Shown here one piece after another: positions 39,798-63,161 of a stretch of 64,000 bases of DNA. The notes beneath the pieces were generated by a model. That model did no database searches. It worked only from the letters and a program-made list of their open reading frames with translations, and had not been told where the DNA came from. This DNA is from Boswellia sacra (lineage: Eukaryota; Streptophyta; Magnoliopsida; Sapindales; Burseraceae). Location of the stretch: the NCBI GenBank assembly GCA_013180625.2, contig SNVD02009784.1:310001-374000 (forward strand), written 5' to 3'. Position numbers and translations under genes: made by a program. Positions within the stretch are counted from its first letter, which is position 1. The number at the start of each line of letters is the position of its first letter.

Positions 39798-40428
39798 GAT
39801 ATTTGTATATATATCTTAATGTGATGATGTAAACGTTGTATATACTTTTTGTACATATATACTGCTAAGGGTATGACCAATTCAAATCTAAATTATCCAA
39901 CTCCCAAAGTTATTCCTTCAATTAAGCTCAATTACAGTGATCATCTTTCCATGCACTTTTGTGCATACTCTTTGTAATATAAATGAAAAATATGTAGTTT
40001 ATTGTTCCATCTTAAATGCCACCAGAGTCTTTTTCAACTCTAATAAATTCCTTTGATCCTTTGTTTTTTTTTTTTTCTTTTCTTTTTAACTGTGATTAAT
40101 GAAACTTCAAAAAGCTCACAAACTATCATGGAATCAGCCATGGTTGTCTTAATGCCAAATAATTTTAACCCAAAAAAGTCGCGCCAAAATTTTATATATA
40201 TTGGCATACTTCTTTATTAGTTGTTTCTTACTATGAATTTAAATAGAAAATCACAAATGTTTATCAATCTCTCTAAAATCTACATCTGTGGTCTTCTAAT
40301 CACAATTGGTCACAACATCATTAAATTTTCATCACATTAGTCCAACAACCTAGGCTTTGGCTTTTCTATATTTCCTTGCATAATTGCAACAACTATAAGT
40401 CCCAATAGTTCCTATATGAAAAAAGCTA

Positions 40429-40429
40429 T

Positions 40430-40462
<33 letters not shown>
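40429..40462. repeat. (CA)n microsatellite
   Basis: Alternating CA with two interruptions; a related (GT)n tract lies at about 40,735-40,748. Confidence 0.95.
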
Positions 40463-40990
40463 AACTTTAGTTAAAGAGCATTTCTGTTTAACCCCCACAT
40501 TTATTTATCTTTCCATGCACTTGTGTGTATATTCTTTGCGATATAAATGAGAAATTTGTACTTCATTGTTCCATCTTAAATGGTATCAAAGGGCTTTTAA
40601 ACTCTAATAAGTTCTTTTGATCCTTTTTTTTTAACCATGAGTGATGAAACTACAGATAGCTCACCAACTACAATGGACTCAACCATGGTCATCTTAATGC
40701 CAAATAATTTTAACCAAAAAACCACCCCAAAATTGTGTGTGTGTGTGTCTATATATTGGCATACCTCTTTATTAATTTTTTCTTACTATGAATTTAAATA
40801 GAAAATGACAAATGTTTACCAATCTATCTGAAGTCTAAATGTGTGGTCTTTTAATCACAACAAGGCACAACCTAAATAGATTTTTTTTCACATTATTCCA
40901 AAAACATAGGCTTTCGATCTTCTATATTTCCATGCACAATTACAACAACTATAAGTCACAATATTATTGTATGAAAGAAACTGTTTTTCT

Positions 40991-41039: not shown

Positions 41040-41041
<2 letters not shown>

Positions 41042-42429
41042 ATGAACACTTAAATATGTATGCTTAATAAGAGTTTAATTCATCATATTGCATTAATAGT
41101 GTCATTAAATTCCTCAACTTAAGCATGTTTGTAGTCTTTGCATCTTTGGAATTAAGTTTCTCTTAATTTTGGTTTTGTTACAGGTTCGGTAAAATGGGCA
41201 TAACTTTCTATTTATAGATCCGAATGGTGCAAATCTTAATGTTTTGGAAATCTAATTAAATTATCTACAAGATTGCATTTCACAAGAATCATCAAATTCG
41301 GGCTCTTAGTAGACCAAACATGGGCTTGAAGTAAACCCATCTGCAGATTTGGCCCAGCCTGACCATGCCTCAGTATTTTGATCATATCTCTCAGAATACA
41401 TATCCAAATCATATGAATCAAGATGTTCTAGAAAGCTGAGAGAAATATCTACGACTTTCATGAAGATATGTGATTAAAATTCACAATAATTCAAGGTCAA
41501 AATTGGTGGTCAAAGTCGGTTCACCTAATTACCCCAATTGTGAAAGTTGGTGCATCTAATATTTGACAATTATTCCTTTGTAATTTGACAAGTTTGCCCT
41601 TGAATGTATCTATAAATAGAGGTGCCTTGTGACCCATTAGGGCATCTTGGCCTTGGTTGGATCATCTTGGCCTTTGCTGGGATCTTGTATTGTGTTTCTC
41701 TCTTGTGTTTTAATGTTATTAATGAATTTCCTTTTTCTTGCATTTTGTGTTCTTTCTCTTATAATGTCTTGCTAATTTCTCTCTTGCTAAGGTGAAAGGG
41801 TGAAACCCTTGGTATGAGAGTAATGATTCTCTAACCCTTGATATGTGCTTAATTATCATAATCTTATGTTGTTTATTTTATATGAGTTACATTTACTTTC
41901 TTAATCAATATTGACACCACTCGTAAAGTGGAGGTCTTGATCCATTGTAGACAATCCTTGGCACATCAAATGCTTGGATCCTTTCTAGATGTCGTATGGT
42001 TCTTTCTTACCGACACGAATCTAGTTAGGAACCTTGATTTGTTGTAGACATATGGAGATTGGCACATTGGATGCTTGAACCCATTTACAAGAGTGGTATA
42101 AATATTGGTAACGAAGCAAATATAATTCATATAACTAAAATGGGTTGTTTATCCTTATTTGAATATCAAGGGCGGATCCCCTAACCTTAGCTTTCATTAT
42201 TATTGTGTTAATTTCTCTTGTGTTATTATCATCTATTGTTTATGAACTTGTTCTTTACTAATATTCATTGATATTATCTTGCCATCTCTTTGAATCAATC
42301 GTATCATATTTGCTTACCTTATAATTTGTAGCGCTAAAATCTCCTTCCTCGTGGATCGAACCCGGTCTTACCGGGTTTATTATTTCGACACTCCTATACT
42401 TGGGAGACAATCCTTTTTCGGATGTGACA
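41040..42429 (+). repeat. 5' LTR of element A
   Basis: 1390 bp, TGATGAACACTTAAATATG to GATGTGACA. The same family occurs at 47103, 49936 and, reversed, at 56105, 57613 and 58793. Confidence 0.95.
41611..41619 (+). promoter_or_regulatory. TATA box in element A LTR
   Basis: CTATAAATAGAGGTGCC; conserved at 47674 and 52165 in other LTRs of the family, and followed by a leader rich in CTTGGCC. Confidence 0.6.
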
Positions 42430-42435
42430 AGTTTT

Positions 42436-42453
42436 TGGCGCCGTTGCCGGGGA
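42436..42453 (+). other. Primer binding site, Athila type
   Basis: TGGCGCCGTTGCCGGGGA, six bases after the LTR. This is the standard Athila-lineage primer site (complementary to an Asp-tRNA 3' end, from memory). Confidence 0.9.
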
Positions 42454-42680
42454 AGGTAAAATTTGGCGTACAAAATTGTAAGTATTTTCTTTTCCCATTT
42501 CTATTTTTATTTTTCTTGCATATGTTCATCCCTTCTCTCCCCATTTCTATTTTTATTTTTTCTTGCATGTGTTCATCTTTTCTTTCTCTTTGCATCAATT
42601 GGTAAAATTGTTGGGAATCACTCATCTTCTCTAAAAAAAAAAAAAAAAAAAACCATGCTCATACCCAACCAAGAACATAA

Positions 42681-44633
42681 ATGGACTCCATAAATTTTAG
42701 AAGAAGTTGTGCACAATCATGCATAGTCTTCCCTTGTGATGCAAAATATTTCAATCATGAACTGGATTTCATTCAATTCTTACCCCACTTTCATGGCCTA
42801 GATGTTGAAAACCCATTTTTGCACTTGAGAGATTTTAAAGAGTTTTGCAATACCTATAATGACCTAAATTGTAGCATAAACATCTTTAGATTAAAGCTTT
42901 TTCCTTTTTCTTTAAAAGATAAAGCTAAAACATGGCTACAAAATCTTAGGTCAGGATCTATTAGCTCATGGGATGAAATGCAACAACAATTTCTTAAAAA
43001 ATTCTTTCCTCCCTATAGAACAAATTCTCTCAAAAGGCAAATCATCAATTTCACTCAAAAACAAGGAGAGACCTTTTACCAATGTTGGGATAGGTATAAC
43101 GCATTACTTAATTCTTGTCCTCACCATGGTTTGGAAACATGGAGACTAGTTTTAATTTTCGATGAAGGTCTAACACATCAAGCTAGGCACATGGTAGATT
43201 TAATATGTAATGGACAATTTGAAAACAAAGACCCTGATGAAGCTATGGATTACCTAGACTTACTAGCGAAAAATGCCCAAAATTGGAACAATGTTGGCAC
43301 CTATGAGATACCAAGAACATCTAGTAAAGGCATTTATAACATTAGGGAGAATCATGATCATCATGCTAAATTTGCATCCCTAGCTAGAAAAGTTGAGGAT
43401 TTAGAAATGTGGTCTATGCAAGAAATTGTTTGTCACACTTGTAATTCTAGTGATCATCCTACGGATGATTGCCCAATTGTACCTACCTTTAGAAAAAATC
43501 TCCATGAGCAAACCAATGTTTTAAACACTTTCCAAAGGTCAAATCCTAATCCTTACTCACAAAATTTTGAATGGAAAAATCACTTGAATTCTGATTTGAG
43601 GAATGATAATAATGCACAATTTTATCAACCTCCCTTTCAATCATATCAAAATTTTCAAAAATCTCATGATCATGCATCTTATGAGGATCTCGAAGAAACA
43701 TTCAATTCATTCATTGCAAAGCAAGAGGCTTTTAATAGTCAAGTTGCTCAAACTATGGCAAACTTGAATGATGCTCTTGAAGTACTTGCATTTGCACTTA
43801 ATACTCATGAGACAGGTGAGTTTCCATCTCAATTAGAGCTAAACTTCATCAATCCACATGTGAGTAATCCAAATGGCCAACATCTAAATGGAGATTCGGT
43901 AAGTACTCTTCATGATGGTAAGGTTGATAAAGAACATATTCTTAACCCTTATGAGAAAGATGATGAATCAATCTTAAAGGGTAAGGAAAAGGTTAATAAA
44001 CCTACACCTAAAAAGGAAGAGATCGAATCCTCATTTATGCCCTCATGTCATCATGCAAAGGAACACAACCAAAATTTTGACAATAATGAATTTTTCAAGC
44101 ATGATGAATGTGAGGAAGCTAATAAGATTAACGTGGAAGACTATATCCAAAATGAGAATTTTTCAAGTCCTTCAAAAATTGGGTTAACTAGTTCATTTGA
44201 AGCAAATATGCAACTAGAGCCTATTACTTCTAAAGAATTCTCATTGCTTGATTTTGTACAGGTGAAGCAGATTAAGAGTTGGGAGCCATGCTTTGAAAAA
44301 AGGCAGGAAGAAACATCCACACTCAAGAATGCATGCCTTAAGGACAAACAAACTCAATCAGTGGTAATCTCTTCCATTCTCACAAATAAAGGAAAAAGAG
44401 AGGTACCACCTCAATGCCATATTTTTGACCGTGGTAAATTACTTTCGAAGAGATTTCTCTTTTGGCCTTTTTTCACGACTAACCAAATTTTATCTGTTTG
44501 TGCCATATTTTCATTTTTATTCTTGATTTTTGCTATCATTTCTAGTTTGTTCTTATTTTATTTTATGTGTTTTTATTTTAGTGTGTGTTTGTCTTTTATT
44601 TTTCGGTCAAGTGACGGATATGGTACTCCATAG
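42681..44633 (+). CDS. gag: Athila-like Gag polyprotein with read-through tail
   Basis: Open frame of 650 residues. The Retrotrans_gag capsid region covers about residues 35-200: FHGLDVENPFLHLRDFKEFC, LFPFSLKDKAKTWLQNLRSG, FLKKFFPPYRTNSLKRQI, then CPHHGLETWRLV. A CX2CX4HX4C zinc knuckle (CHTCNSSDHPTDDC) lies at about residues 251-264, later than a basic linker. A Gln/Asn-rich region follows. The protease seen in element B is missing: the frame passes from the gag C-terminal region at about nt 44,260 into sequence that in B lies after pol, ending RSSDGYGTP. The last ~75 residues include a very hydrophobic stretch from T-rich DNA, probably non-coding by origin. Gag forms the particle and binds RNA; this one has no stops and could still be made. 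Confidence 0.85.
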   Translation: MDSINFRRSCAQSCIVFPCDAKYFNHELDFIQFLPHFHGLDVENPFLHLRDFKEFCNTYNDLNCSINIFRLKLFPFSLKDKAKTWLQNLRSGSISSWDEMQQQFLKKFFPPYRTNSLKRQIINFTQKQGETFYQCWDRYNALLNSCPHHGLETWRLVLIFDEGLTHQARHMVDLICNGQFENKDPDEAMDYLDLLAKNAQNWNNVGTYEIPRTSSKGIYNIRENHDHHAKFASLARKVEDLEMWSMQEIVCHTCNSSDHPTDDCPIVPTFRKNLHEQTNVLNTFQRSNPNPYSQNFEWKNHLNSDLRNDNNAQFYQPPFQSYQNFQKSHDHASYEDLEETFNSFIAKQEAFNSQVAQTMANLNDALEVLAFALNTHETGEFPSQLELNFINPHVSNPNGQHLNGDSVSTLHDGKVDKEHILNPYEKDDESILKGKEKVNKPTPKKEEIESSFMPSCHHAKEHNQNFDNNEFFKHDECEEANKINVEDYIQNENFSSPSKIGLTSSFEANMQLEPITSKEFSLLDFVQVKQIKSWEPCFEKRQEETSTLKNACLKDKQTQSVVISSILTNKGKREVPPQCHIFDRGKLLSKRFLFWPFFTTNQILSVCAIFSFLFLIFAIISSLFLFYFMCFYFSVCLSFIFRSSDGYGTP

Positions 44634-45055
44634 CTTTTAAAGTCGGTTTTTCAGTTCCCTAAAAACTATTGCTCACCTTGCATTCATTTTCTTTTCTTTT
44701 CTCTCATTTTCTTCATAGTCTTGGGAATCTGACTCAAAATGACCCTGTTTGCCAGTTTATAAGAAAACTAGATGGGAAGCATATCCCCAACTCATAAAAG
44801 GTGTTTAAGCCGTTTCTGGACGTAAAACCAGAGGAAGATGTGAGCCACAGTCACAACTACCTGTACATATGCATGCGTGCCATCATTTTTGAATTTTAAT
44901 GCCTCATAGCTGTCATTTTGGAATTGGTATCTTTTGTTTGACTTATGGTGTCTTATTTCATCGTCTTTTGAATTTTTATGCATCATTGTCAACTTTTTCA
45001 ACAAACAACCGAGCTACCTAGCTAGATATCATCATTAGCATACCTTTTTGCAGTC

Positions 45056-45064
45056 CATAAATAC
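45056..45064 (+). promoter_or_regulatory. TATA-like box upstream of LOG
   Basis: CATAAATAC, 49 bp before the LOG start codon, followed by a pyrimidine-rich CTTGTTCTCTTCTTC leader. The same segment is kept in element B (63105). It could be a private promoter for LOG or chance; no transcript evidence is available. Confidence 0.3.
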
Positions 45065-45112
45065 CACATGTCTTGTTCTCTTCTTCACACATAGTTAGAG
45101 TGTTGCATAGAC

Positions 45113-45763
45113 ATGGAGGGAACTTCACAACGTCGAATCCAAAGGATATGTGTATTCTGCAGATCTCGACCGGGTAAAAGTGAGGAGTTTGTAGAAGTAG
45201 CAAATTATCTTGGTAGGCTACTGGCTGAAAGAAAGATTCATGTGGTTTATGGGGGAGGTAGCCTCGGGTTAATGGGTTGTGTGTCAACAGCTGCACATGT
45301 AGGAGGTAGTCAAGTTTTAGGAGTGATTCCTAAAGCTTTGGCTATAGAAAGCGTCGTTGGAAAAATGGTTGGGACGGAGTTACAGGTCTCCTCTATGCAT
45401 GAACGCATGGCACATATGCTCATCAATTCAGATGCTTTTATTGCTTTACCAGGTGGCTTTGGTACTCTTGAAGAAATCTTTCAAATTGCCTCTTGGGCCC
45501 AACTGAATCTCCATCAAAAACCCATAGGTTTGTTGAATGTCAAAAATTTCTTTGATCCTTTGATAAGTTTTGTTGATGCAGCTGTGGAACAAAATTTTAT
45601 CCCTCATTGGGCGAGACAGATCCTTGTTTCTGTCACTTCTGCTGGTGAGTTACTTGACAAATTACAAGCAGTAGAGTATGAACCTGACCCAGCTAGTGCT
45701 CAAATTAATTGGTCAGGAGGGCAAAACAAAAAGTGCAAATTGGATCTGAATCTCCGTTTGTAA
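45113..45763 (+). CDS. LOG: Retrotransposon-borne cytokinin riboside 5'-monophosphate phosphoribohydrolase (LONELY GUY)
   Basis: LOG enzymes release active cytokinin base from its riboside monophosphate in one cytosolic step. The 216-residue open frame has usual LOG length (~215). Motifs in order: VFCRSRPGKSEEF (14-26), VVYGGGSLGLMG (44-55), GSQVLGVIPKAL (65-76), SMHERMAHM (94-102), ALPGGFGTLEE (111-121, the family signature with Glu121), and KPIGLLNVKNFFDPLISFVD (136-155). The start is chosen because MEGTSQRRIQRICVFC gives the standard short N-terminus. Two conserved positions are changed: Gly of the FCGS loop is Arg17, and Lys after the conserved Arg98 is Met99, so activity is uncertain. 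It has no introns, whereas plant LOG genes normally have several, suggesting capture of a spliced RNA. It lies downstream of gag in element A, on the element's coding strand; a frameshifted homologue occupies the same place in element B. Confidence 0.93.
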   Translation: MEGTSQRRIQRICVFCRSRPGKSEEFVEVANYLGRLLAERKIHVVYGGGSLGLMGCVSTAAHVGGSQVLGVIPKALAIESVVGKMVGTELQVSSMHERMAHMLINSDAFIALPGGFGTLEEIFQIASWAQLNLHQKPIGLLNVKNFFDPLISFVDAAVEQNFIPHWARQILVSVTSAGELLDKLQAVEYEPDPASAQINWSGGQNKKCKLDLNLRL

Positions 45764-46762
45764 TTTTTTTCTTGTCCTTATTTTATTTTTAGCATTGTAT
45801 TTTATGAGTCTTTCAGGTCATCTCTCTTGAATAACAGAAGCTTTAGGTAATGTCTCCTATACTTTATCTCTCTACATTTAAACATTGAGGACAATGTTTT
45901 ATTTGGTTGGGGGGGAAGGATAGTAGACATAAGTATGTTTTCAATTTTCTTTTTCTTGTCAAAAAAAAAAAAGCGAGTTAGTAACTAGATTCAGAGTGCG
46001 GCGTAAGGAGTTCAAATCCTCTTGAGATGCATTCTGGGTCAGGAATGGCAGAGTAAGGAGGACCAGTTTGAACTCTTGAAACCCATTCTAACCAATTTGT
46101 CATTTTATTTTGATTTGTGAACTCATTTTAGCTAACTTGATATTATTTAGTCTTGATTTTTGAATTTTATAACAAGGAGGTCTTTTTCATTTCACTTTGA
46201 ATTATTCAAATCTATGAACTCTCATAACATTATCAGTTAATAAACTGTGTGCTTATGTACTCGTTAAGCAAGTATTCATGAACCTTTCTTCACACACACA
46301 CATACCTTGATGTATGATTGTGGATGGCGAAATGAAATGTTGCAATATTTAAGTTCTTTTATTTTGTTTAGGATAACAACAAAAGGAAGGGGAAAGTAAA
46401 AAAAAAAAATGAAAGCAAAAGAAAAGAGGTAAAAAAAAAGAGAGCAATTGTGGATAAGTTTGGTCTCGTAGCCTCCTTAATTCGAGCAATTAAGCCCGAG
46501 GGGTGCCTCAACACCTAATACCCTAAGACCAACTGGTTTGGGAGCTATTGGCCCAAAGCTCGCTACATGGATTAAGGAGAAAGCTTAATGGGATTGAACC
46601 TTGCACTATCCACAAGTTTATAAGCAAAAATAAAGCATCGGCAACCCGAGTCGTTAAGCTCGTAGGGGTGTCTTAACACCTAATGCCCTAAGGCCAACTG
46701 GTCTGGGAGTCATTAGCCTAAGGCTCGCTACATGGGTTAAAGATGCATTCTTTCAAAAAAAA

Positions 46763-46805
<43 letters not shown>

Positions 46806-47102
46806 AATTAATGCCCCCTACCTAAAGTTGTTAGCCTTAACAAATATTAGAACCGATATGGCTTCTTTCTAATAAGCCCCATAGTCATGTGTCGACTGAG
46901 CCCAAAAAGAAGGTTTATTGATATATTGACTGAAGGGTACATGAGTTGTAAAAATTAAAAAAAAAACGGTTGAGAGTTTGTTTATTTGGATAAAATCAAG
47001 GAGAGTGCAATAATGACCACCTTGGACGTAAAATTCTATAAATCACTTCTAAATAATAACGCTTTAATTGCTAGGGACTAGCAATAAGCTGGCTGGGAGG
47101 TG
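45764..47102 (+). other. 3' non-coding region of element A
   Basis: Directly after LOG is sequence shared with element B: the conserved ACATTGAGGACAATGTTTTA then TTTGGTTGGGGGGGAAGG motif (about 45,884-45,930), usual in Athila-type elements. At 46,450-46,745 a block (CGAGGGGTGCCTCAACACCT to GCTCGCTACATGG) is duplicated, and a (TA)n tract lies at 46764-46802. CTGGCTGGGAGGTG just before 47103 is the candidate polypurine tract. Confidence 0.7.
46450..46745 (+). repeat. Duplicated block in 3' region of element A
   Basis: Two ~95-bp copies (about 46,489-46,575 and 46,650-46,735) share AACACCTAAT-CCCTAAG-CCAACTGGT and GGCTCGCTACATGG. Confidence 0.85.
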
Positions 47103-48288
47103 TGATGAACACTTAAATATGTATGCTTAGTAAGAGAGTAATTCATCATATTGCATTAATAGTGTCATTAAATTCCTCAACTTAAGCATGTTTGTAGTCT
47201 TTGCATCTTTGGAATTAAGTTTCTCTTAATTTTGGTTTTGTTACAGGTTCGGTAAAATGGGCATAACTTTCTATTTATAGATCCGAATGGTGCAAATCTT
47301 AATGTTTTGGAAATCTAATTAAATTATCTACAAGATTGCATTTCACAAGAATCATCAAATTCGGGCTCTTAGTAGACCAAACATGGGCTTGAAGTGAACC
47401 CATCTGCAGATTCGGCCCAGCCTGACCATGCCTCAGTATTTTGACCATATCTCTCAGAATACATATCCAAATCATATGAATCAAGATGTTCTAGAAAGCG
47501 GAGAGAAATATCTACGAATTTCATGAAGATATGTAATTAAAATTCACAATAATTCAAGGTCAAAATTGGTGGTCAAAGTCGGTTCACCTAATTACCCCAA
47601 TTGTAAAAGTTGGTGCATCTAATATTTGACAATTATTCCTTTGTAATTTGACAAGTTTGCCCTTGAATGTATCTATAAATAGAGGTGCCTTGTGACCCAT
47701 TAGGGCATCTTGGCCTTGGCTGGATCATCTTGGCCTTTGCTGGGATCTTGTATTGTGTTTCTCTCTTGTGTTTTAATGTTATTAATGAATTTCCTTTTTC
47801 TTGCATTTTGTGTTCTTTCTCTTATAATGTCTTGCTAATTTCTCTCTTGCTAAGGTGAAAGGGTAAAACCCTTGGTATGAGAGTAAGGATTCTCTAACCC
47901 TTGATATGTGCTTAATTATCATAATCTTATGTTGTTTATTTTATATGAGTTACATTTACTTTCTTAATCAATCTTGACACCACTCGTAAAGTGGAGGTCT
48001 TGATCCATTGTAGACAATCCTTGGCACATCAAATGATTGGATCATTTCTAGATGTCGTATGGTTCTTCCTTACCGACATGAATCTAGTTAGGAACCTTGA
48101 TTTGTTATAGACATATGGAGATTGGCACATTGGATGCTTGAACCCATTTACAAGTAGTGGTATAAATATTGGTAACGAAGCAAATATAATTCATATAACT
48201 AAAATGGGTTGTTTATCCTTATTTGATATATCAAGGGCGGATCCCCTAACCTCAGCTTTTATTATTATTGTGTTAATTTCTCTTGTGT
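47103..48288 (+). repeat. 3' LTR of element A, truncated at right end
   Basis: Matches the first ~1,180 bp of the 5' LTR, then stops after TTTCTCTTGTGT and continues into unit c of the TRIM-like array. The last ~200 bp of LTR and the target duplication are lost. Confidence 0.9.
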
Positions 48289-49110
48289 CATTTCTATTCA
48301 GCCCCCACAATGATTTATCTTTCCATGAACTTGTGTGTATATTCTTCGTAATATAAAAGAAAAATATGTAGTTCATTGTTCCATCTTGAATGGTATCAGA
48401 GCCTTTCTAAACTCTAATGCGTTCTTTCGATCCTTTATTTTTTTCCCCCTTTTAACCAAGGTTAATGAAACTATAGAAAGCTCACCAATTGTTATAGAAT
48501 CAACCATGGTTGTCTTATTGCCAAATAATTTTAACCAAAAAGTCATGCCAAATTTTACATACATGTATATATTGGCATACCTCTTTAACAGTTGTTTTTC
48601 ACCATGAATTTCAAAAGAAAATGACAAATGTTTACCAATCTCTCTGAAGTCTAAATGTGTCGTCTTCTAATCACAACAGGTCACAGCCTCAATAAATTTT
48701 CTTCACATCATTCCAAAAAAACTAGGCTTTCGTTTTTCTATATTTCCATGCACAATTACAACAACTATACGTCCCAATAGTTATTATATGAAAGAAAATG
48801 TTTTTCTATTTTTTTGGATATCTAGTTAAAAAGCGTTTCTATTGAGCCCCTACATTTATTTTTCTTTCCATGCACTTGTGTGTACATTCTTTGAAATATA
48901 AATGAAAAATATATACTTCACTGTTCCATCTTAAATGGTATCAGAGCCTTTTAAAACTCTAATGAGTTCTTTTCATCCTTTTTTTGGGTTCTTTTAACCA
49001 GGATTCATGAAAATATAGAAAGCTCACCAACTATCATGGAATCAACTATGGTTGTCTCAATGCCAAATAATTTTAACCAAAAAGTCACGTCAAAATTATA
49101 TATATACATA
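48289..49110 (+). repeat. Tandem TRIM-like array, units c and d
   Basis: Unit markers CTTTCCATG at 48319 and 48864 (545-bp spacing); primer-site motifs TGGTATCAGAGCC at 48391 and 48936. Unit d is truncated after the gag-start-like stretch. Removing element A restores a spacing of about 561 bp between units b and c, showing one continuous array before insertion. Confidence 0.8.
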
Positions 49111-49935: not shown

Positions 49936-52900
49936 TGATGAACAATTAAATATGTATGCTTAATGAGAGCTTAATTCATCATATTGCATTAATAGTGTCA
50001 TTAAATTCCTCAAGGGATAATGTCACAAACCTCTCCTATGTTTTGCCTTAATGTCATAGAGATGGGACTTTTGCATTTTTTTCTAAAAAGAGTCCCTACT
50101 GTCTGAGAAACGCGTCATGGGGACCCCTTCTGTTACATTTGCCATTTAATTTATATAAATAAGTTGAAGTAACAAGGGTATATGAGTCTTTTAGATTGAA
50201 TCAGTCAACATTATATAAATGTAGTCAAAAATACAAAAATTCCAATCGAGCCCGCCCACCACTATCGTCACGCACACCCTACTAGTTGACCCAAAGTTTT
50301 TCCTTCAATCAACTGTTCATCTTCCCGCTTCGCGTGAACTCAGTGTACGTAGGACGAGCTTTCAAGCCAGTTGCAGAGTGAAGTCCGATCCTTGAAGAAG
50401 ATAGCGACACTCTCATGTTTACCTTCGCTGGAATAGAGAATCATGCAAGTGTCAAATCACAAAATATTCCAGTTCATCTGAAACAAGAGAATTACAGCTA
50501 AAAAGAATACAATTAAACATAACAAAACTTAAGATAAATATTATAAAGAAACAAGTCTTTTCAAATCCCAATCCATTCTGGGACTGTTTTATCTTCATCT
50601 TTCTGTGTAAATTCATGTTACAGAAGCCATTACTATTAATCCAAACTTCAAAAAATATGTAACGTTAAAACTTAGCCTGGAAAAGTAGTTTGAAATAGAC
50701 CATCAAACCCACCATAAAATTTATCAGAAAAAACGAAGAAACAATGGTTGTTTTCTCAGAAAGTATGGTTTTTTCTTAGAATCTCAAAAACACAAAGATG
50801 CAGAAACTTTCTAAATTAGTTTCATTTGTTAAAGACAGAGAAATGACAAGAAAAAGACGGCTGACTTGCAGCTACAGCTACAGCCACAACCACTTCTTTT
50901 CGAACACATAGAAATTAAGCATAGAAGCTTCAAACTTTTTCATTTTTCCTATGTCACATCACATGAGCAAGGCAAAATGTGATTATGCTAACACCTTTAA
51001 CTCACCGTTTGAGAAGAGCAAATCTAGAAGAAAATGTGAATATGCTATGATGTGCTGTGCTATGCTGTGCCCTCCAAAGATCGAAACAGGCGAAGAGTGC
51101 GTTGAAAGTACAGATAAACTGAGAATGAGGATCTTTCTTGGCTGATGAATAGGAGAGAAAGTTAGAACAAAAGTGGAAATTCAAAGGCTGGAGATTTGAA
51201 TAATGCAAAAGCTTTCGCGCTAATAATTATAAAAATAATAATAGAAGAGAAGAAAAAGTTGAGCTTTTTGCAGAGAAGTTCATGGGTGGGCTGGATGGAA
51301 TAAGCCTCCAGCGGAAAGCGAAGCTTCCATATTTTTAATTATTATAAAACTTTTCGACTGAATCGGACTTCACACTGCCCGGATTTGTTTTTTCATGTTG
51401 CATTTCGGGGGTAAAATTGTAAATTGATTTATCCTCCCTTGTTTATTATTATATATACATTTTTACTTATTTATAGACAAGGGTATATATGTAATTGAAA
51501 TGTAAATAGATGGAAAGATGATGTCATGTAACGGCAAATGTAACAGAAGGGGTGCCTATGACACGTTTCTTAAGCAGTAGGGACTTTTTTTAGAAAAAAA
51601 TATAAAAGTCTCATCTCTATGACATTAAGGCAAAATATAGGGGAGGTTTGTGACATTATCCCAATTCCTCAACTTAAGCATATTTGTAGTCTTTACATCC
51701 TTCGAATTAACTTTCTCTTAATTTCAGTTTTGATGTAGTTTTGGTAAAATGGACAGAACTTTCTATTTATAGATCCGAATGATGCAAATCGTAATGTTTT
51801 GGAAAGCTGATTCAATTATCTACAAGATTGCATTTCACAAGTATCATCAAATTCGAGCTCTCAGTGGACCAAAACTGGGCTTGAAGTGAACCCATTTACA
51901 GTCTCGGCCTAGTCTGACCAGGCCTCAGTATTTGGACCATATCTCTCAAAATACGTATCCAAATTGTGCAAATCAATATGTTCTAAAGAGCTGAGTGAAA
52001 TATCTACAACTTTCATGAAGACATGTGATTAAAAGGCTTAATATTTTAATGTCAAAATCGGTGGTCAAAGTGGTGCACCTAATGATCCCAATGGTCAAAG
52101 TTAGTTCACCTAACATTTGACAACTATTCCTTTGTAATTTGACAAGTTTGCCCCTGAATGTATCTATAAATAGAGGTGCCTTGTGACCCATTGGGGCATC
52201 TTGGCCTTGGCTGGGATCTTGTATTGTGTTTCTCTCTTGTGTTTTAATGTTATTAATGAATTTCCTTTTTCTTACAATTTGTGTTCTTTCTCTTATAATG
52301 TCTTTCTAATTTCTCTCTTGCTAAGGTGAAAGGGTGAAACCGTTGATATAAGAATAAGGATTCTCTAACCCTTGGTATGTGCTTAATAATCGTAATCTTG
52401 TGTTGTTTATTTTATATGATTTATATTTATTTTCTTAATCAATCTTGACACCACTCGTAAAAGTGGAGGTCTTGATCCATTGTCGATAATCGTTGGTACA
52501 TCAAATGCTTGGATCCTTTCTAGATGTCGTATGGTTCTTCCTTACCGACACGCATCTAGTTAGGAACCTTGATTTGTTGTAGATATATAGTGATTGGCAC
52601 ATTGGATGCTTGAACCCATTTACGAGAAGTGGTATAAATATTGGTAACGAAGCAAATATAACTCATATAACTAAAATGGGTTGTTTATCCTTATTCGAAA
52701 TATCAAGGGCCGATCCCCTAACCTTAGCTTTCATTATTATTGTGTTGATTTCTCTTGTGTTTTAGTTATTCTCATTTATTGTTTACGAACTTGTTCTTTA
52801 CTTATATCTATTGATATTATCTTGTCATCTCTTTGAATCATCATATCGTATTTGCTTAGCTTATAATCTGTAGCGCTAAAATTCCCTTCCTCGTGGATCA

Positions 52901-52971
52901 ACCCTAGTTTCACCGGGTTTATTACTTCAACACTCCTATACTTAGGAGACAATTCTATTTCAGATGTGTCA
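49936..52971 (+). repeat. 5' LTR of element B, interrupted
   Basis: LTR sequence is 49936-50013 plus 51663-52971 (about 1,377 bp without the inserted element and its duplication). Ends CAGATGTGTCA. Confidence 0.95.
50014..51662. mobile_element. 1.65-kb Mutator-like element inserted in LTR, possible Pack-MULE
   Basis: Begins GGGATAATGTCACAAACCTC and ends with its reverse complement; the inverted repeats extend about 130-150 bp (shared CATAGAGATGGGACTTTT, AGTCCCTACTG and CTTCTGTTACATTTGCC). It is flanked by AATTCCTCAA on both sides (50004-50013 and 51663-51672), a 9-10-bp duplication; uninterrupted LTRs have this word once. The interior has no transposase. It holds a GC-richer patch (about 50,240-50,450) and another at 50,940-51,150 that could be captured gene fragments. 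Confidence 0.9.
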
Positions 52972-52977
52972 AGTTTT

Positions 52978-53170: not shown

Positions 53171-55507
53171 ATGGCCTTCAATCTAGTGGAAAGGTTCACG
53201 GATGAAGGGGACAACCGTTCCCAACAAAATGATCAAAACCAACGAATAACCCTCAGAGATTACATGAATCCGGTAAGGACTAGTGCACCATCTTGTGTAG
53301 TTTCTCCTCCAGATTCTATCCATTTCAATTTCAAGCCATGTTTTGTTTGACTTCTACCCACCTTTCATGGCCTTGATGTGGAGAACCCATATTCGCACTT
53401 AAAACTCTTTGAAGAGGTATGTAATTCCTACACTGACCCAAATTGTATCATAAACACCATTAGATTAAAGCTTTTTCCTTTTTCTTTAAAAGATAAAGCT
53501 AGAACATGGCTACAAAATTTGAGGTCGAATTCCATCAGTTCATGGGATGAGATGAAACAACAATTTTTGAAAAAATTTTTTCCTACCCAAAGAACAAATT
53601 CTCTTAAAAGACAAATTTCCGATTTCTCTCAAAAACAAGGGGAAACCCTTTACCAATATTGGTATAGGTATAAGGAACTACTTAATACCTGTCTTCACCA
53701 TGGTTTTGAAACTTGGAGAATAGTTGCACATTTCTATGAAGGGTTAACACCTCAAGATAGGCAACTAGTAGAATTAATGTGTAATGGAGAATTTAAAGAA
53801 AAAGACCCTGAGGAAGCACTTGACTACATAGATTCCTTGGCAGAAAAGGCACAAAATTGGGACACTGCTGGCACCTATGAGGTACCAAGCAAGGCCCCAA
53901 CCTCAACATCCAATAGAGGCATTTACAACCTTAGAGAAGACCATGACCTTCAAGCCAAATATGCATCCCTAGCTAGAAAAGTCGAGGCTTTAGAAATGAA
54001 AAAGAATGGTCAATTGAATTCTATTCAAGAAAATGTCTGTAACATTTGTAATGACAATGACCATTCTACTGATGATTGTCCAACTTTGCCTGCCTTTAGG
54101 GAATGTCTCCATGAACAAGCCAATGCTTTGAACACTGTCAAAAGGCCAAATCACAATCCATACTCACAAACCTACAATCCTGATTGGAGAAATCATCCAA
54201 ATTTTAGTTGGAAAAATGACAATCATGCACAATCTTCACAAGTCCCTTTTCAAACACAACAAAAATTTCAAAATTCTCATGATCATGCATATGCTCCTCC
54301 TCCTAGGAATGACCTTGAAAAAACATTGCATTCTTTCATTACAAAGCAAGAGACTTTCAATAGTCAAACTGCTCAAATATTAGCAAATTTGTCAGACACT
54401 CTTGCAAAATTTGCATCTACATTTAGCATCCAAGAGAAAGGAAAATTTCCTTCTCAAACATTGCAAAACCCCAAAGATCAATCTAACTCAAATGCAGGGA
54501 GTTCAAATAACCATTATTTTGACCAAGCCAAGTCAGTCATGACCCTTTGCAATGGTAAGGTTGTTGAAAAACACATTCCTAACCCTTGTGAGAAAGAAGA
54601 AGAATCGATCTCTAAAGGGCAGGAAGAGGTTGCCAAACCAACACCTAGCGAAGAGGAAACCAAATCCTCATTTGTGCCTCCATTTCCTCAAGCATTAGCT
54701 ACACAAAAGAAGCCAACTCACAATTCTGAAATCTTTGAAATTTTCAAACAGGTAAAGGTCAACATTCCTTTGCTTGATGTGATCAAACAGGTACCGTCTT
54801 ATGCAAAATTTTTGAAAGACTTATGCACTGTGAAAAGGAAATTGAATGTGAAAAAGAAGGCCTTTCTAGCTGAGCAAGTAAGTGTTATTCTTCAAAACAA
54901 TAATACAGTGAAATATAAGGATCCAGATTGTCCTACAATTTCATGTGTTATTGGAGACCATAAAATTGAACAAGCTTTACTTGATCTTGGTGCTAGTATG
55001 AATTTGCTTCCATATTCGGTTTTTCAGAAACTCAATCTAGGTGAGTTAAAACCGACTTCTGTGACTCTTTTGCTTGCTGATAGATCGATCAAAGTATCAA
55101 GAGAAGTAGTAGAAGATGTGTTAGTTCAAGTTGATAAATTCATTTGTCCAGTGGATTTTATTGTCTTGGACACACAACCAGTGGAAGTATGTAATTCAAC
55201 TCCTATCATTTTAAGGCGTCCATTTCTAGCTGCCTCTAATGCTTTGATTAATTGCAGGAATAGAGTCATGAAGCTATCATTTGGGAACATGACATTGGAA
55301 CTGAATGTTTTCAATATGTGCAAACAACCACATGAAAAAGAAGATGAAATTGAGGAGGCCAATGTGATTAAAACTATTGTGGAAGACCATATCCAAAAAG
55401 GGAGTTCTTCTGACCCTTTGGAAACTTGTTTAGTGAATTCATTAGAATCAAGTATGGAACTAGAACCTGATCTTTCTGATATGTGTTCTTTACTGGATTG
55501 TGCATAG
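53171..55507 (+). pseudogene. gag-pro: Athila-like Gag-protease with premature stops
   Basis: Starts at ATG 53171 (MAFNLVERFTDEGDNRSQQN), hits TGA at 53348, and continues in the same frame to TAG at 55505. The capsid block (LFPFSLKDKARTWLQNLRSN, FLKKFFPTQRTNSLKRQI) is followed by the zinc knuckle CNICNDNDHSTDDC near 54,035-54,080. Near 54,960-55,020 is the aspartic protease DLGASMNLLPYSVFQKL, with DLGAS as the Athila form of the active site. Element A has a Gln codon (CAG) where this copy has the TAG at 55505, so that stop is a mutation and not a normal gag/pol boundary. Confidence 0.9.
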
Positions 55508-56104
55508 GTGATGGAAAAAGGCTCAAAATCAAGATTCGAAGAATTGGGGCAAATGAATGAAAGCAAGGAAGAGGAAGCTCGCAAGTTAGAATTGAAGCCC
55601 TTACCTGAAGGACTGAAATATGCATATCTTGGGGAGAATCAGACATATCCGATGGTAATTTCTTCATCCCTCAAAAGCGACCAACAAGGTAAGTTGATAC
55701 ACGTACTTAAAAGGCATAAAAATGCAAGCAGGTGGACGTTAAAAGACATAAAAGGCATTAACCCTTTGATTTGTAGACAGAGAATACATTTAGAAGAAAA
55801 TGCCAAAACATCCCAACAACCTCAAAGGAGATTAAATCCCCAGACGAAAGAGGTGATTAGGGCTGAAGTTCTCAAACTACTTGATGTGGGAATTATCTAT
55901 CCTATTTCTGATAGTAAGTGGGTAAGCCCTACACAAGTAGTACCTAAGAAATCTGGCATTACAGTAGTCAAAAATGAAAAGGGTGAATTATTGCCAACTC
56001 GAGTCTCATCTAGTTGGAGGATGTGCATTGATTATAGAAAATTAAATTATGTCACCAGAAAAGACCATTTTTCCTTACCTTTCCCTGACCAAATTCTTGA
56101 AAGA
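55508..56104 (+). pseudogene. pol: Athila-like reverse transcriptase, N-terminal part
   Basis: Continues the gag-protease frame. Contains LLDVGIIYPISDSKWVSPTQ, VPKKSG and SSSWRMCIDYRKLN, the usual entry of gypsy RT. It stops at DQILER where the reversed solo LTR is inserted (AAAGA duplicated at 56100-56104 and 57470-57474). Confidence 0.9.
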
Positions 56105-57469
56105 TGACACATCCAAAAAAGGATTGTCTCCCAAGTATAGGAGTGTCGAAGTAAAAAACCCGGTAAGTCCGGGGTCGATCCACGAGGAAGGAGATTTTAG
56201 CACTACAAATTATAAGGTAAGCAAATATGATATGATTGATTCAAAGAGATGGCAAGATAATATCAATGAATATTAGTAAAGAACAAGTTCATAAACAATG
56301 GATGATAATAACACAAGAGAAATTAACACAATAATAATGAAAGCTAAGGTTAGGGGATCCGCCCTTGATAATTCAAATAAGGATAAACAACTCGTTTTAG
56401 TTATATGAATTATATTTGCTTCGTTACCAATATTTATACCACTTCTTGTAAATGGGGTTCAAGCATCCAATGTGCCAATCATCATATGTCTACAACAAAT
56501 CAAGGTTCCTAACTAGATTCGTGTCGGTAAGAAAGAACCATACATCATCTAGAAAGATCCAAGCATTTGATGTGCCAAGGATTGTCGACAATGGATCAAG
56601 ACCTCCACTTTACGAGTGGTGTCAAGATTGATTAAGAAAATAAATATAAATCATATAAACAACATAAGATTATGATTATTAAGCACATATTAATGGTTAG
56701 AGAATCCTTACTCTCATATCAAGGGTTTCACCCTTTCACCTTAGCAAGAGAGAAATTAGAAAGACATTATAAGAGAAAGAACACAAATTGCAAGAAAAAG
56801 GAAATTCATTAATAACATTAAAACACAAGGGAGAAACACAATACAAGATCCCAGCTAAGGCCAAGATGTCCTAATGGGTCACAAGGCACCTCTATTTATC
56901 GATACATCCAGGGGCAAACTTGTCAAATTACAAGGGCATAATTGTCAAATATTAGTTGTAAATATCTTTGACAATTGGGATCATTAGGCACCGACTTTGA
57001 CCATCAATTTTGACATTGAAATGTTGAGAATTTTAATCACATTTCTTCATGAAAGTTGTAGATATTTCTCTCAGATTTCTAGAACATATTGATTTGCACA
57101 ATTTGGATACGTATTTTGAGAGATACGGTCCAAATACTGAGGCCTGGTCAGACTGGGCTGAGACTGTAGATGGGTTCACTTCAAGCCCAATTTTGGTCTA
57201 TTAAGAGCCCGAATTTGATGATTCTTGTGAAATGCAATCTTGTAGACAATTGAATCAGCTTTCCAAAACATTAAGAATTGCACCATTCTGATCTATAAAT
57301 AGAGAGTTATGGCCATTTTACCAAACCTGTAACAAAACCAAAATTAAGAGGAAGTTAATTCAAACATGCAAAGACTACAAATATGTTTAAGTTGAGGAAT
57401 TTAATGACACTATTAATGCAATATGATGAACTAAGCTCTTATTAAACATACATATTTAAGTGTTCATCA
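56105..57469 (-). mobile_element. Reversed solo LTR of the same Athila-like family inside RT
   Basis: Minus-strand copy of the LTR, TGATGAACAC end at 57469 and TGACACATCC end at 56105, 1,365 bp. Flanked by the perfect 5-bp duplication AAAGA. No internal domain, so it is the product of insertion followed by LTR-LTR recombination. Confidence 0.95.
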
Positions 57470-59882
57470 AAAGAGTAGCAGGGCACTTCTACTACTGCTT
57501 TCTTGATGGATATTCAAGCTATTATCAAATTCCCATTGCGCTCGAAGACCAAGAAAAGACCACATTTACATGCCCCTTCGGCACTTTTGTATTTAGGAGA
57601 ATGCCTTTTGGAAAGTCGGTAAGGAAGAACCATACGACATCTAGAAAGGATCCAAGCATTTGATGTGCCAAGGATTGTCGACAATGGATCAAGACCTCCA
57701 CTTTACGAGTGGTGTCAAGATTGATTAAGAAATTAAATATAAATCATATTGAATAAACATTATAAGATTAAGATTATTAAGCACATATTAAGGGTTAGAG
57801 AATCCTTATTCTCATATCAAGGGTTTCACCCTTTCACCTTAGCAAAAGAGAAATTAGAAGAACATTATAATAGAAAGAAAATAAAATGTAAGAAAAAGGA
57901 AATTCATTAATAACATAAACACACAAAACACAATACAAGATCCTAGCCAAAGCCAAAATGTTCCAGCCAAGGCCAAGATGCCCTAATGGGTCACAAGGCA
58001 CCTCTATTTATAGATACATCCAGGGGCAAACTTGTCAAATTACAAGGGCATAATTGTCAAATATTAGTTGTAAATATCTTTGACAATTGGGATCATTAGG
58101 CACCGACTTTGACCATCAATTTTGACATTGAAATGTTGAGAATTTTAATCATATGTCTTCATGAACATTGTAGATATTTCTCTCAGCTTTCTAGAACTAT
58201 TGATTTGCACAATTTGGATACGTATTTTGAGAGATACGGTCCAAATACTGAGGCCTGGTCAGACTGGGCCGAGACTGTAGATGGGTTCACTTCAAGCCCA
58301 ATTTTGGTCCACTAAGAGCCCGAATTTGATGATGCTTGTGAAATGCAATCTTGTAGACAATTGATCAGCTTTCCAAAACATTAAGATTTGCACCAAAAAT
58401 TTCTGATCTATAAATGAGAGTTATGCCATTTTTACCAGGGGGAGGCGTGGGGGAAGGGGGGGGATAATGAGGGGGAACAGGGGAAGAGAAAAGAAAAACT
58501 TTAACAAACCAGAATTAAGAGGAAGTTAATTCCAAAGATGCAACAGACTACAAATATGTTTAAGTTGATGACTTTCATGATACGCTATTAATGTCAATAT
58601 TATTAACTAAGCTCTTATTAAACATACAATTTAATTGTTCATCAAAGAGTGTGGCACGGTCACTTCTACTACTTCTTTCCTTGATGGATATTCAAGTGCT
58701 ATTATCAAATTCCCATTGCGCATCTAAGACCAGAAAAGACCACATGTTCGTGCCCCTTCGGCACTTTTGCATTTAGGAGAATGCCTTTTGAAAAGTCGTA
58801 AGGAAGAACCATACATCATCTAGAAAGGATCAAGCATTTGATGTGCCAAGGATTGTCGACAATGGATCAAGACCTCCACTTTACGAGTGGTGTCAAGATT
58901 GATTAAGAAAATAAATGTAAATCATATAAACAACATAAGATAATGATTATTAAGCACATATTAAGGGTTAGAAAATCCTTACTCTCATATCAAGGGTTTC
59001 ACCCTTTTACCTTAGCAAGAGAGAATTTAGAAAGACATTATAAGAGAAAAAACACAAATTGCAAGAAAAAGGAAATTCATTAATAACATTAAAACACAAG
59101 GGAGAAACACATACAAGGATCCCGCTAAGGCCAAAGATGTCCTAATGGGTCCCAAGGCACCTCTATTATCGATACAATCCGGGGCAAACTTGTTCAAATT
59201 ACAAGGGCATAATTTGTCATATTAGTTGTAAATATCTTTGACAATTGGGATCATTAAGCACCGACTTTGGACATCATTTTTGACATTGGAAATGTTTGAG
59301 AATTATAATCATTGTCTTTCTGAAAAGTTGTAGATATTTCTCTCAGATTTCTAGAACATATTGATTTGCACAATTTGGATAAGTATTTTGAGAGATACGG
59401 TTCAAATACTGAGGCCTAGTCAGACTGGGCTGAGACTATAGATGGGTTCACTTCAAGCCCAATTTTGGTCTACTAAGAGCCCGAATTTGATGATGCTTGT
59501 GAAATGCAATCTTGTAGAAAATTAAATCAGCTTTCCAAAACATTAATAATTGCACCATTCTGATCTAGAAATAGAGAGTTATGCCCATTTTACCAAACCT
59601 GTAACAAAACCAAAATTAAGAAGAAGTTAATTCCAAACATGCAAAGACTACAAATATGTTTAAGTTGAGGAATTTAATGACACTATTAATGCAATATGAT
59701 GAACTAAGCTCTTATTAAACATACATATTTAAGTGTTCATCAAAAGAGTAGCAGGGCACTTCTACTACTGCTTTCTTGATGGATATTCAAGCTATTATCA
59801 AATTCCCATTGCGCTCGAAGACCAAGAAAAGACCACATTTACGTGCCCCTTCGGCACTTTTGCATTTAGGAGAATGCCTTTT
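56523..59882. repeat. Tandem triplication spanning solo LTR and RT junction
   Basis: Three successive units (about 56,523-57,612; 57,613-58,792; 58,793-59,882) each run from inside the reversed LTR, through its TTCATCA end and the AAAGA duplication, into ~140 bp of RT coding sequence ending RRMPFG. The junctions 57,612 and 58,792 have the same odd joint (CCTTTTGG-AAAGTCGGTAAGG), so the copies arose from one rearrangement. The middle unit has many small indels and a G-rich insert. A sequencing or assembly origin must be considered. Confidence 0.9.
58438..58494 (+). other. G-rich block with quadruplex-forming pattern
   Basis: At least five runs of four to nine G within 57 bp, replacing a TTTTACCAAACC stretch found in the sister units. 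It has no counterpart elsewhere in the window. Confidence 0.6.
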
Positions 59883-60230
59883 GGACTTTGCAATGCCCCA
59901 GCCACTTTTCAAAGATGCATGTTAAGCATTTTTAGTGACATGGTTGAGCATTGTTTAGAAGTCTTTATGGATGATTTAACTGTCTTTGGAAACTCTTTTG
60001 ATAATTGTCTTGAAAACTTAGAAAAAGTCCTAAAAAGGTGTGAAGAAAAAGGTCTTATTTTGAATTGAAAAAAATGTCATTATATGGTCACTTCGGGAAT
60101 TGTCTTTGGTCATGTGGTGTCTTATAAGGGAATTGAAGTGGACAAAGCAAAAGTGGAATTAATTTCCCATTTGCCTCCACCAAAAATAGTCAAAGAGGTT
60201 CGTTCATTCTTAGGGCAGGATTTTATAGGA
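59748..60230 (+). pseudogene. pol: Athila-like reverse transcriptase, catalytic part
   Basis: RT resumes after the triplication: FLDGYSSYYQIPIALEDQEK, FRRMPFGLCNAPATFQRCM, then VFMDDLTVFG, where MDD is the catalytic motif. A TGA at 60066 interrupts the frame where Trp is usual. A one-base shift near 60,222 follows. Confidence 0.9.
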
Positions 60231-61200
60231 GGTTCATAAGAAATTTCAGTACTATATCTAAAACTCTATGTAACCTCTTAATAAAAGACACTTCTTTTGA
60301 ATGGACTCAAGAATGTCAAAATGCCTTTGATAAATTAATTGGACTTTTAAGAATTGCTCAAATTATGCAATCTCTTAATTGGTCCTTGCCTTTTAAATTG
60401 ATGTGTGATACAAGTGACTACGCCGTTGGTGCTGTCTTAGGACAAAGAAAAGAAGGTAAGCCTTATGTGATATACTATGCAAGTAGGACTTTAAATGATG
60501 CCCAAATGAATTACACAACAACTGAAAAAGAATTACTTGCTGTAGTATTTGCATTGGACAAATTTCGATCTTATTTAATTGGTTCTCCCACGATTGTTTA
60601 CACTGACCATGCAGCTGTGAGATATTTAATGTCTAAACAGGATGCAAAACCTAGATTGATACGGTGGATCTTATTGCTCCAAGAATTCAACATCACAATA
60701 AAGGATAAGACAGGAGCCGAAAATGTCGTTGCTGATCATCTTTCAAGACTAACAACAGAGACATTAATTGAAACTACACCTATCAATGATTCTTTTCCTG
60801 ATGAATTTTTATTTTCTGTTGCTACTGTACCTTGGTTTGCTAACATTGTAATTTTTCTTGCAATAGGAAAAATGCCACCTCATTGGAATGCTCAAGACAA
60901 AAGGAAATTTTTAACCGAGGTGAAAAATTTTTATTGGGATGACCCATATCTATTCAAATATTGTCCAGACCAAATAATAAGAAGATGCATACTCGACAAT
61001 GAGGTAAGTAGTGTCATTAACTTTTGTCATTCTGAAGCATGTGGAGGACATTTTTCATCTAGAAAAACGGCTGCTAAGATCTTACAATGTGGATTTTATT
61101 GGGCCACCTTATCTAAAGATGCACATGCATTTTGCAAAATGTGTGAAAATTGTCAAAATTAATGATCCATTTCAAAAGAAACATGATTGCCTTTGAATCC
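60231..61200 (+). pseudogene. pol: Athila-like RNase H and integrase zinc domain
   Basis: Open from 60365 to 61162. RNase [41 protein letters not shown] and YTDH near 60,600. The linker [11 protein letters not shown] follows. The integrase zinc region is [20 protein letters not shown] (with His residues) and CKMCENC near 61,135-61,155. A frameshift follows at about 61,160. Confidence 0.9.
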
Positions 61201-61219
61201 CATTTCTTGTTGTTGAAAT

Positions 61220-62170
61220 CTTTGAATGTTTTGTTTTTTGGGGTATTGATTTTATGGGACCCTTTCCACCGTCATTTGGTTTTGTGTACATCCTTGTTGA
61301 AGTAGACTATGTTTCAAAATGGGTCGAGGCAATTCCATGTCGAAACAATGATCACAAAACAGTTGTCAAATTCTTAAAGGAGAATATCTTAAGTAGATTT
61401 GGAATTCCTCGAGCATTATTAGTGATGGGGGTACACATTTTTGTAACAAACCATTTGAAACTTTAATGAAGAAATATGGAATAACCCATAAAATTTCTAC
61501 ACCTTGTCACCCAGAAACAAGTGGACAAGTTAAATTAGCTAATAGGGAGATAAAACAGATCTTAGAAAAAACAGTTAACCCAAATCGTAAAGATTGGTCT
61601 TTAAAACTTAATGATGCACTTTGAAAACAAAAACTTAAAAAAAAGAAAAAAAAACTTAAAAAACAAAACTTAACCGAACTAGCTTTCAAAACATCATTGG
61701 GAATGTCCTCCTTATAGATTATTTTATGGAAAACCGTGTCACTGCACTGTGGAAATTGAGCAGAAAGCTTATTGAGCCATTAAAACATTCAACACAAATT
61801 TGAATGATGCTTGCAAGTTACGTAAACTCCAACTGAGTGAACTTGAGAAATCAGGAATGAGGCTTATGAAAATTCTAAAATCTACAAAGAAAAAATGAAG
61901 GTTTTTCATGACAAATCCACTGTTAGAAAATCTTTTGAACCTTCACAAAAAGTTCTTTGGTATGATTCAAGATTGCATTTGTTTCCTGGTAAACTTCGGT
62001 CTCGTTGGACTGGGCCTTTCATTGTTAAAAATGTTTTCCCTCATGGAGCAGTTGAAATTGAGAACCTAAAGAATGGTAATGTGTTTAAAGTTAATGGACA
62101 ACGGTTAAAACCATTTTTTGAAAATTTTGACCAAAATGAAGAGTCCATTGCTTTAGTCGATCCTTTTTAA
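61220..62170 (+). pseudogene. pol: Athila-like integrase core and C-terminal domain
   Basis: The core begins [20 protein letters not shown] (first Asp). The second Asp (SDGGTHF) lies across a frameshift near 61,418. The Glu region [14 protein letters not shown] (about 61,519-61,560) is readable in a second frame. 61,620-61,880 is corrupted by an A-rich insert and stops. The end (61895-62170) is open, with [20 protein letters not shown], the GPF/Y-type integrase C-terminus, and stops at 62168-62170. Confidence 0.85.
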
Positions 62171-62297: not shown

Positions 62298-62780
62298 ATG
62301 GATACCATTATCTCAAAGTTGCACAAACATTTTCCCTCTCTTCCTCAAAATGATTTGCTTAAAATTTACAAAGCCCGCACTGAAAGACTAAGGATGTTGA
62401 TGTTTAAGGGTATGCCTGTTGAAGTAAGATGGTTAATTGAAGCCAAGGTTCGATTTTCTTATGAATTTTCAGATAATCTTGTTTCTCACATGCCAGGTAT
62501 AGGAAAAAGCTCTTACGCCAAAAAGCGAAGAGCAAAAAGGTTACAAGTTTGTCCCAAATGTGTAAGATGGACTTGTAACCAGCGTTGCCGCTCATTGGGA
62601 TATTTGTCTAATAATCGAGATGATAAACTACAGTTCATCAAGAATGGACTGAGTAGGGAGTCCTTGGATGATATCCGAATGACTCTTGAACGTATTTTTG
62701 TGGACTTGTGCAGCGTGAAATTTTTAACTTGTGGACACAATTCCGAGATAAGCAGGAATGCTATAGTCTTGGGAATCTAA
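62298..62780 (+). CDS. Unknown Cys-rich basic ORF between pol and LOG
   Basis: Open frame of 160 residues from ATG 62298. The upstream ATG at 62250 only adds a hydrophobic run from pyrimidine-rich DNA, so I prefer 62298. Basic centre KKRRAKRLQVCPKCVRWTCN (~residues 75-95) with CPKC then CNQRC suggests metal binding; another Cys pair (DLCSVKFLTCGH) is near residue 140. Sequence resembles nothing I can name. It lies where Athila relatives may carry an env-like ORF, but it has no signal peptide or transmembrane segment. In element A the sequence from 62,296 to about 62,763 is cleanly absent. Confidence 0.5.
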   Translation: MDTIISKLHKHFPSLPQNDLLKIYKARTERLRMLMFKGMPVEVRWLIEAKVRFSYEFSDNLVSHMPGIGKSSYAKKRRAKRLQVCPKCVRWTCNQRCRSLGYLSNNRDDKLQFIKNGLSRESLDDIRMTLERIFVDLCSVKFLTCGHNSEISRNAIVLGI

Positions 62781-63161
62781 CTCAAAACGACTCTGTTTGC
62801 CAGTTTATAAGAAAACTAGATGGGAAGCATATCCCCAACTCATAGAAGGTGTTTAAGCCGTTTCTGGACGTAAAACCAGAGGAAAATGTGAGCCACAGTC
62901 ACAACTACTTGTACATATACATGCGTGCCATCATTTTTGAATTTTAATGCCTTATAGCTGTCATTTTTGAATTTGTATCTTTTGTTTGACTTATGGTGTC
63001 TTATTTCATCATCTTTTTGAATTTCTATACATAATTGTCAAATTTTTCAACAAGCAGCCGAGCTACCTATTTGGATGTCATTATTAGCATACCTTTTTGC
63101 ACTCCATAAATACCACATCTCTTGTTCTCTTCTTCACACATAGTTAGAGAGTTGCATAGAC

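Follow-up and report, generated by a model that had tools for sequence, protein, structure and literature searches.

A LOG-family gene carried by two retrotransposons of a putative Athila-type family in Boswellia sacra

A gene of the LOG family, open over its full length, lies inside an LTR retrotransposon in the stretch of Boswellia sacra DNA analyzed here (the window; 64,000 nucleotides), and a second, broken copy of this gene sits in the same flanks within a diverged relative of that retrotransposon. We refer to the two retrotransposons as element A and element B and to their LOG genes as copy A and copy B (Table 1). The intact copy has lost two residues of the base-binding site, a lysine and a glutamate, to other amino acids. 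On balance, we are fairly confident that a LOG retrocopy was captured and then amplified along with its element, and that its product is probably no ordinary cytokinin-activating enzyme now.

An intact LOG gene between the gag ORF and 3′ LTR of element A

An earlier note on this DNA had described an uninterrupted 216-codon LOG gene with a PGGFGTLEE signature, and this description was borne out by an ORF that runs from ATG to stop without interruption, contains the signature, and scores above the respective cut-offs of Pfam PF03641 (E 1.3e-37) and NCBIfam TIGR00730 (E 1e-48). The LOG equivalog of NCBIfam, NF058542, is a model built for prokaryotic annotation and gave copy A 112.5 bits, which is under its cut-off of 300 bits. 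The best solved relative is Arabidopsis At2g37210 with 51% identity over residues 6–191 and two gap positions, and copy A is LOG-like across residues 5–191 of its 216, combining near-full-length LOG homology with the motif PGGxGTxxE. When 41040–48292 was shuffled 200 times base by base and read on both strands, the longest stop-free run was 192 codons and none of the shuffles reached 216. A search of viral contigs with LOG as the query confirmed no relative.

The same note had placed the gene on the coding strand between gag and the 3′ LTR, and the succession of 5′ LTR, primer-binding site, gag ORF, LOG, and 3′ LTR in element A agrees with it. A CATAAATA-like box lies around 55 bases 5′ of the copy A ATG, a G-run at 45909 falls between the gene and the 3′ LTR, and the purine-rich sequence GGCTGGGAGGTG immediately precedes this LTR. 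Element A showed no pol. The LTR pair shows 22 differences among 1188 aligned columns, with gaps in 2 further columns (K2P 0.019), and the 3′ LTR lacks about 200 bases, with another repeat taking over at 48292. Repeat units of around 500 bases flank the element on both sides (39917–40990 and 48292–49109, with TGGTATCAGAGC at 48391 and 48936), and element A seems to be embedded in an array of another element's repeats.

Table 1. Features of elements A and B in the window
Feature	Positions	Strand	Evidence
5′ LTR, element A (TGATG...GACA)	41040-42429	+	41040-42227 98% identical to 47103-48292; ends read
Primer-binding site TGGCGCCGTTGCCGGGG, element A	42436-42452	+	Sequence
gag-derived ORF, element A, 650 aa	42681-44633	+	Retrotrans_gag, E 1.6e-19
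Pre-LOG stretch common to elements A and B, overlapping the end of the gag ORF	44595-45112	+	Self-comparison
Intact LOG ORF, copy A, 216 aa	45113-45763	+	ORF call; Pfam, solved-relative, and NCBIfam matches
Post-LOG stretch up to the 3′ LTR, without recognized gene	45764-47102	+	
3′ LTR, element A, cut short by another repeat	47103-48292	+	LTR comparison
LTR-derived 5′ part, element B	51650-52976	+	87-88% identical to element A LTRs
gag/protease ORF, element B	53378-55507	+	Retrotrans_gag (E 4e-23); sub-threshold Asp_protease_2 (E 6e-4)
Reverse transcriptase, RNase H, and integrase pieces, element B	59733-61624	+	RVT_1, RT_RNaseH, and Integrase_H2C2 above cut-off; two rve pieces below
Carlavirus nucleic-acid-binding-protein-like ORF, element B, 160 aa	62298-62780	+	Above cut-off: Carla_C4 at E 5e-6, Viral_NABP at E 1e-5
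LOG copy B, broken	63162-63811	+	One-base frameshift and one in-frame stop; both pieces match PF03641

A broken LOG copy in the same flanks of element B

The flanks of copy A had also been described as common to a second element, which is correct and extends to the gene itself: 44715–45948 and 62763–63999 are 92.5% identical, LOG included. Copy B has lost one base and contains one in-frame stop, and it is placed as a sense extra ORF downstream of the integrase of element B, whose expected 3′ LTR would lie beyond the end of the window. Since copy B occupies the same flanks in element B, copy A is explained neither by an assembly join nor by a lone host gene, and both explanations were rejected because both LOG junctions recur there. 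An ordinary host LOG gene or an assembly join beside unrelated retrotransposon sequence could appeal to the TATA-like box found 5′ of the ATG in both copies, but the two junctions are common to two diverged elements, the ORF is uninterrupted, and element A has LTRs on either side of it, all of which makes this explanation exceedingly improbable.

Three head-to-tail LTR copies of the element A family (56075–59743, minus strand) interrupt the pol region of element B as nested insertions. A further RNase H/integrase copy at the start of the window (6–1070) is 83% identical to 60357–61447. No relative was confirmed when viral contigs were searched with the RNase H–integrase piece of element B.

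Lineage of the two elements

The pieces of element B follow the gypsy domain order of reverse transcriptase, RNase H, and integrase, and the primer-binding site of element A, TGGCGCCGTTGCCGGGG at 42436, fits a tRNA other than tRNA-Met, with a sequence that we take to be of the tRNA-Asp type. Non-chromoviruses avoid tRNA-Met, and Asp is among the tRNAs that are used, according to the available part of PMC6317226. Neither a chromodomain nor the second RNase H that marks Tat elements was found in the scanned pieces, which are broken and represent a subset of frames. The Athila ORF-1 domain PF03078 had no match in the ORFs scanned, and this is not decisive because just 16% of Athila elements reportedly have this domain (PMC6317226, same part). 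Elements A and B would thus be Ty3/gypsy elements of the Athila type, a putative assignment that follows from domain order, primer-binding site type, and the lack, in the scanned pieces, of features marking Tat elements or chromoviruses rather than from a tree. With the elements so classified, the proposal of a LOG-derived gene within an Athila-type element, and in more than one such element, holds up on the evidence of copies A and B and of the element anatomy.

Divergence and probable history of the LOG module

Between elements A and B, K2P amounts to 0.066 upstream of LOG, 0.091 within it, and 0.068 downstream. This divergence is 3.5 to 5 times that of the element A LTR pair (0.019), so that, judging from these distances, LOG was in the family before element A inserted and already before A and B separated. 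Substitution rates of 1.3e-8 and 7e-9 are used for LTR dating, and with these rates the LTR K2P of 0.019 translates into an insertion age of roughly 0.7–1.3 million years for element A.

Identity between the two elements varies strongly with position, from 87%–88% in the LTRs over 77% across 42001–43492 (end of the LTR, leader, and beginning of gag) and 69% in the remaining gag to 87% across 44595–44715. The LOG module reaches 92.5%, compared to 69%–77% for the gag stretch, and a module that is more alike than gag suggests exchange between subfamilies. LOG is no more similar between the elements than its flanks are, which recent common ancestry via recombination would explain better than constraint on the gene. 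LOG genes of peanut have 3–7 exons, the majority of them 7 (PMC13257298, available part), and the absence of introns from the ORF studied here therefore points to a processed copy.

The history that we propose begins with a spliced LOG mRNA that would have been captured by a Ty3/gypsy element of the Athila type via template switching and would then have traveled with it as an additional sense ORF lying between integrase and 3′ LTR, the layout seen in element B. Subsequent loss of pol in element A would have left LOG between gag and the 3′ LTR, and the module probably reached the two diverged elements by copying with the element together with recombination between subfamilies. Element A would then be a gag-LOG derivative that may be mobilized in trans with pol supplied from elsewhere.

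Selection since the split of copies A and B

A Nei–Gojobori dN/dS of 0.40 between copy A and copy B (Fisher P 0.003 on rounded counts) hints at constraint, but this signal is gone once the observed kinds of substitutions are imposed. We simulated divergence by placing the observed substitution types at random on copy A (54 differences; codon 16, a gap in copy B, excluded), and the 30 nonsynonymous codons seen compare with 34.2 expected (one-sided P 0.12) and the 17 synonymous ones with 12.1 expected (one-sided P 0.07), while stop counts gave a one-sided P of 0.28. The differences did not spare conserved positions either, since they fall on 7 of 48 conserved columns and on 16 of 128 others (P 0.80; 23 of the 30 amino-acid differences, namely those in residues 10–185). 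Purifying selection as an interpretation of the ratio was therefore dropped.

Departures from the conserved residue at these 48 columns number 7 in copy A and 11 in copy B, for which codons 16 and 124 (the latter a stop in copy B) were set apart and the copy A residue was entered in the list of copy B. One departure is private to A and five are private to B, and at position 99 both copies depart, differently. These private departures, small as their numbers are, fit longer constraint on the lineage of A. The open frame of copy A as such needs little explanation, because it would have gathered few changes in the time since element A inserted.

Residues of the active site and predicted activity

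The proposed catalytic residues of CgLOG are Arg99 and Glu122, and its inferred prenyl site comprises Met96, His97, Lys100, Glu125, and Trp129, which are said to be identical in AtLOG3, OsLOG, and CpLOG (PMC4979012, available part). Copy A keeps the catalytic residues as Arg98 and Glu121, each of which is found in 80 of the 80 bacterial LOGs examined (the best 80 of at least 591 confirmed), as well as Met95, His96, and Trp128 of the prenyl site. The lysine and glutamate of the adenine/prenyl site, corresponding to Lys100 and Glu125 of CgLOG, are replaced in copy A by Met99 and Gln124. Their equivalents are present in 80/80 bacterial LOGs each, retrieved with a scan pattern that permits Met at the first position (99) and leaves the second (124) uncovered, and also in the 4 solved LOG chains that were aligned out of 17 matched. 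In copy B, position 99 is Ile and codon 124 a stop. Arg17 is found in copy A alone, at a position where the bacterial LOGs have Gly (75/80) or Ala (5/80).

The earlier note had taken the product for an enzyme that makes active cytokinin. Its view is in line with the catalytic Arg98 and Glu121 and with the PGG motif, all of which are kept, but Met99, Gln124, and Arg17 make activity doubtful as far as residues can predict it, and with it the role of copy A as a cytokinin maker. LOG-like proteins in which Met follows the Arg exist in plants, and the captured source may have been a LOG-like host paralogue already carrying Met99 and Gln124. A loss of activity is predicted rather than shown, because the LOG of Mycobacterium marinum differs at three prenyl-site positions, the S19A variant of CgLOG is more active than the wild type (PMC4979012), and in wheat, activity varies among LOGs that have identical critical residues (PMC11593424; available parts of both sources).

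A first alternative is that LOG is a working accessory gene that raises local cytokinin and keeps host cells dividing, by which the element would gain access to the meristem or germ line. The retained Arg98, Glu121, and PGG motif and the open ORF of copy A agree with such a function, as do the tolerance of natural LOGs like that of M. marinum for some prenyl-site changes and the recurrence of the YgdH domain in elements of Citrus and Populus (PMC9289625, available section). It is nevertheless distinctly unlikely, given that the lysine and glutamate of the adenine/prenyl site are replaced, that alanine at AMP-binding or catalytic residues nearly abolished the activity of CgLOG with one exception (PMC4979012, available part), that selection is not established, and that copy B is broken.

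The element might instead have repurposed LOG, e.g., as a nucleotide-binding protein that has another substrate, and Met99 and Gln124 would be part of the change. This would agree with the loss of the lysine at position 99 from both copies (Met in A, Ile in B) and with the preservation of Arg98, Glu121, and the PGG loop in copy A. We consider it unlikely, however, since selection is not established with two copies, position 124 is unreadable in copy B where it is a stop, and copy A has Arg17 in place of a nearly invariant Gly. Under the preferred reading of a captured retrocopy amplified with its element, the LOG protein would now be mainly a passenger whose activity is reduced or changed.

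A carlavirus-type ORF in element B

A short ORF resembling the nucleic-acid-binding proteins of carlaviruses is located between the integrase and the broken LOG of element B and has no counterpart at the equivalent position in element A. Its product has a basic stretch followed by clustered cysteines, and the ORF is possibly an RNA-virus gene acquired by the retrotransposon. No relative was confirmed in a viral-contig search with this ORF, and none of the literature titles and abstract beginnings covered, which represent part of the literature, joins a carlavirus-type ORF with a plant retrotransposon; the words carlavirus, retrotransposon, and Athila all occur in PMC5967125. It is conceivable, if very unlikely, that this Athila-type family possesses a two-gene 3′ accessory module composed of the carlavirus-type nucleic-acid-binding ORF, a possible silencing suppressor, followed by LOG with a remodeled base-binding site, and that recombination moves this module between subfamilies as a host-manipulating cassette directed at silencing and cell division.

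Comparison to known systems

LOG-family sequences in plant retrotransposons are already in print, and the suggestion that no LOG-bearing Athila family had been described is therefore not supported as a claim to novelty of kind. The YgdH domain, otherwise found in LOG proteins, is reported for gypsy consensuses from Citrus sinensis and Citrus clementina, where it passes a filter requiring five consensuses in each species, and for gypsy elements of Populus trichocarpa it is reported without this filter (PMC9289625, citing Steinbauerova et al. 2011). These elements are like those studied here in having a LOG-family domain inside a plant Ty3/gypsy element; the section of PMC9289625 that treats them does not describe them as Athila and does not give their lineage, the position of the domain in the element, its residues, or its intactness. 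That YgdH passes the five-consensus filter in Citrus suggests lasting retention there (same section), which we count against the passenger reading.

Other plant LTR elements carry sense extra ORFs between pol and the 3′ LTR, i.e., in the same place and orientation, but most of these are either env-like or lack a known domain in common, whereas the ORF described here encodes a recognizable host enzyme (PMC7264820, PMC6317226; available parts). The AlkB-type (m6A demethylase) domain of orchid Ty3/gypsy elements is likewise an enzyme domain that was taken up and amplified by gypsy, though it is termed functional in a title while LOG activity is doubtful here (PMC9289625, available section). Maize Bs1 is likewise an LTR retrotransposon with transduced host sequence; its sequences come from different host genes, in contrast to one nearly full-length gene in two elements (PMC7264820, available part). 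Our literature search, which did not extend to Steinbauerova 2011 as the likeliest place, found no description of the element anatomy, the altered base-binding site, or the adjacent carlavirus-type ORF.

With LOG located in a defined element and present in two copies, the gene belongs to an element family and not to a single insertion. The two binding-site residues provide testable ground for doubting mobile cytokinin genes, and the family would be a clean case for why retrotransposons retain host enzymes if intact, constrained copies of LOG exist elsewhere in it.

Other features of the window

Another element spans 4501–13029, where LTR-like repeats of about 1.7 kb are 90%–94% identical, TGGTATCAGAGC occurs at 6230, and several ORFs between the repeats look Ty1/copia-like by eye. 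An ORF with a Transposase_21 (tnp2) domain at 27061–27939 on the plus strand presumably encodes a CACTA-type transposase.
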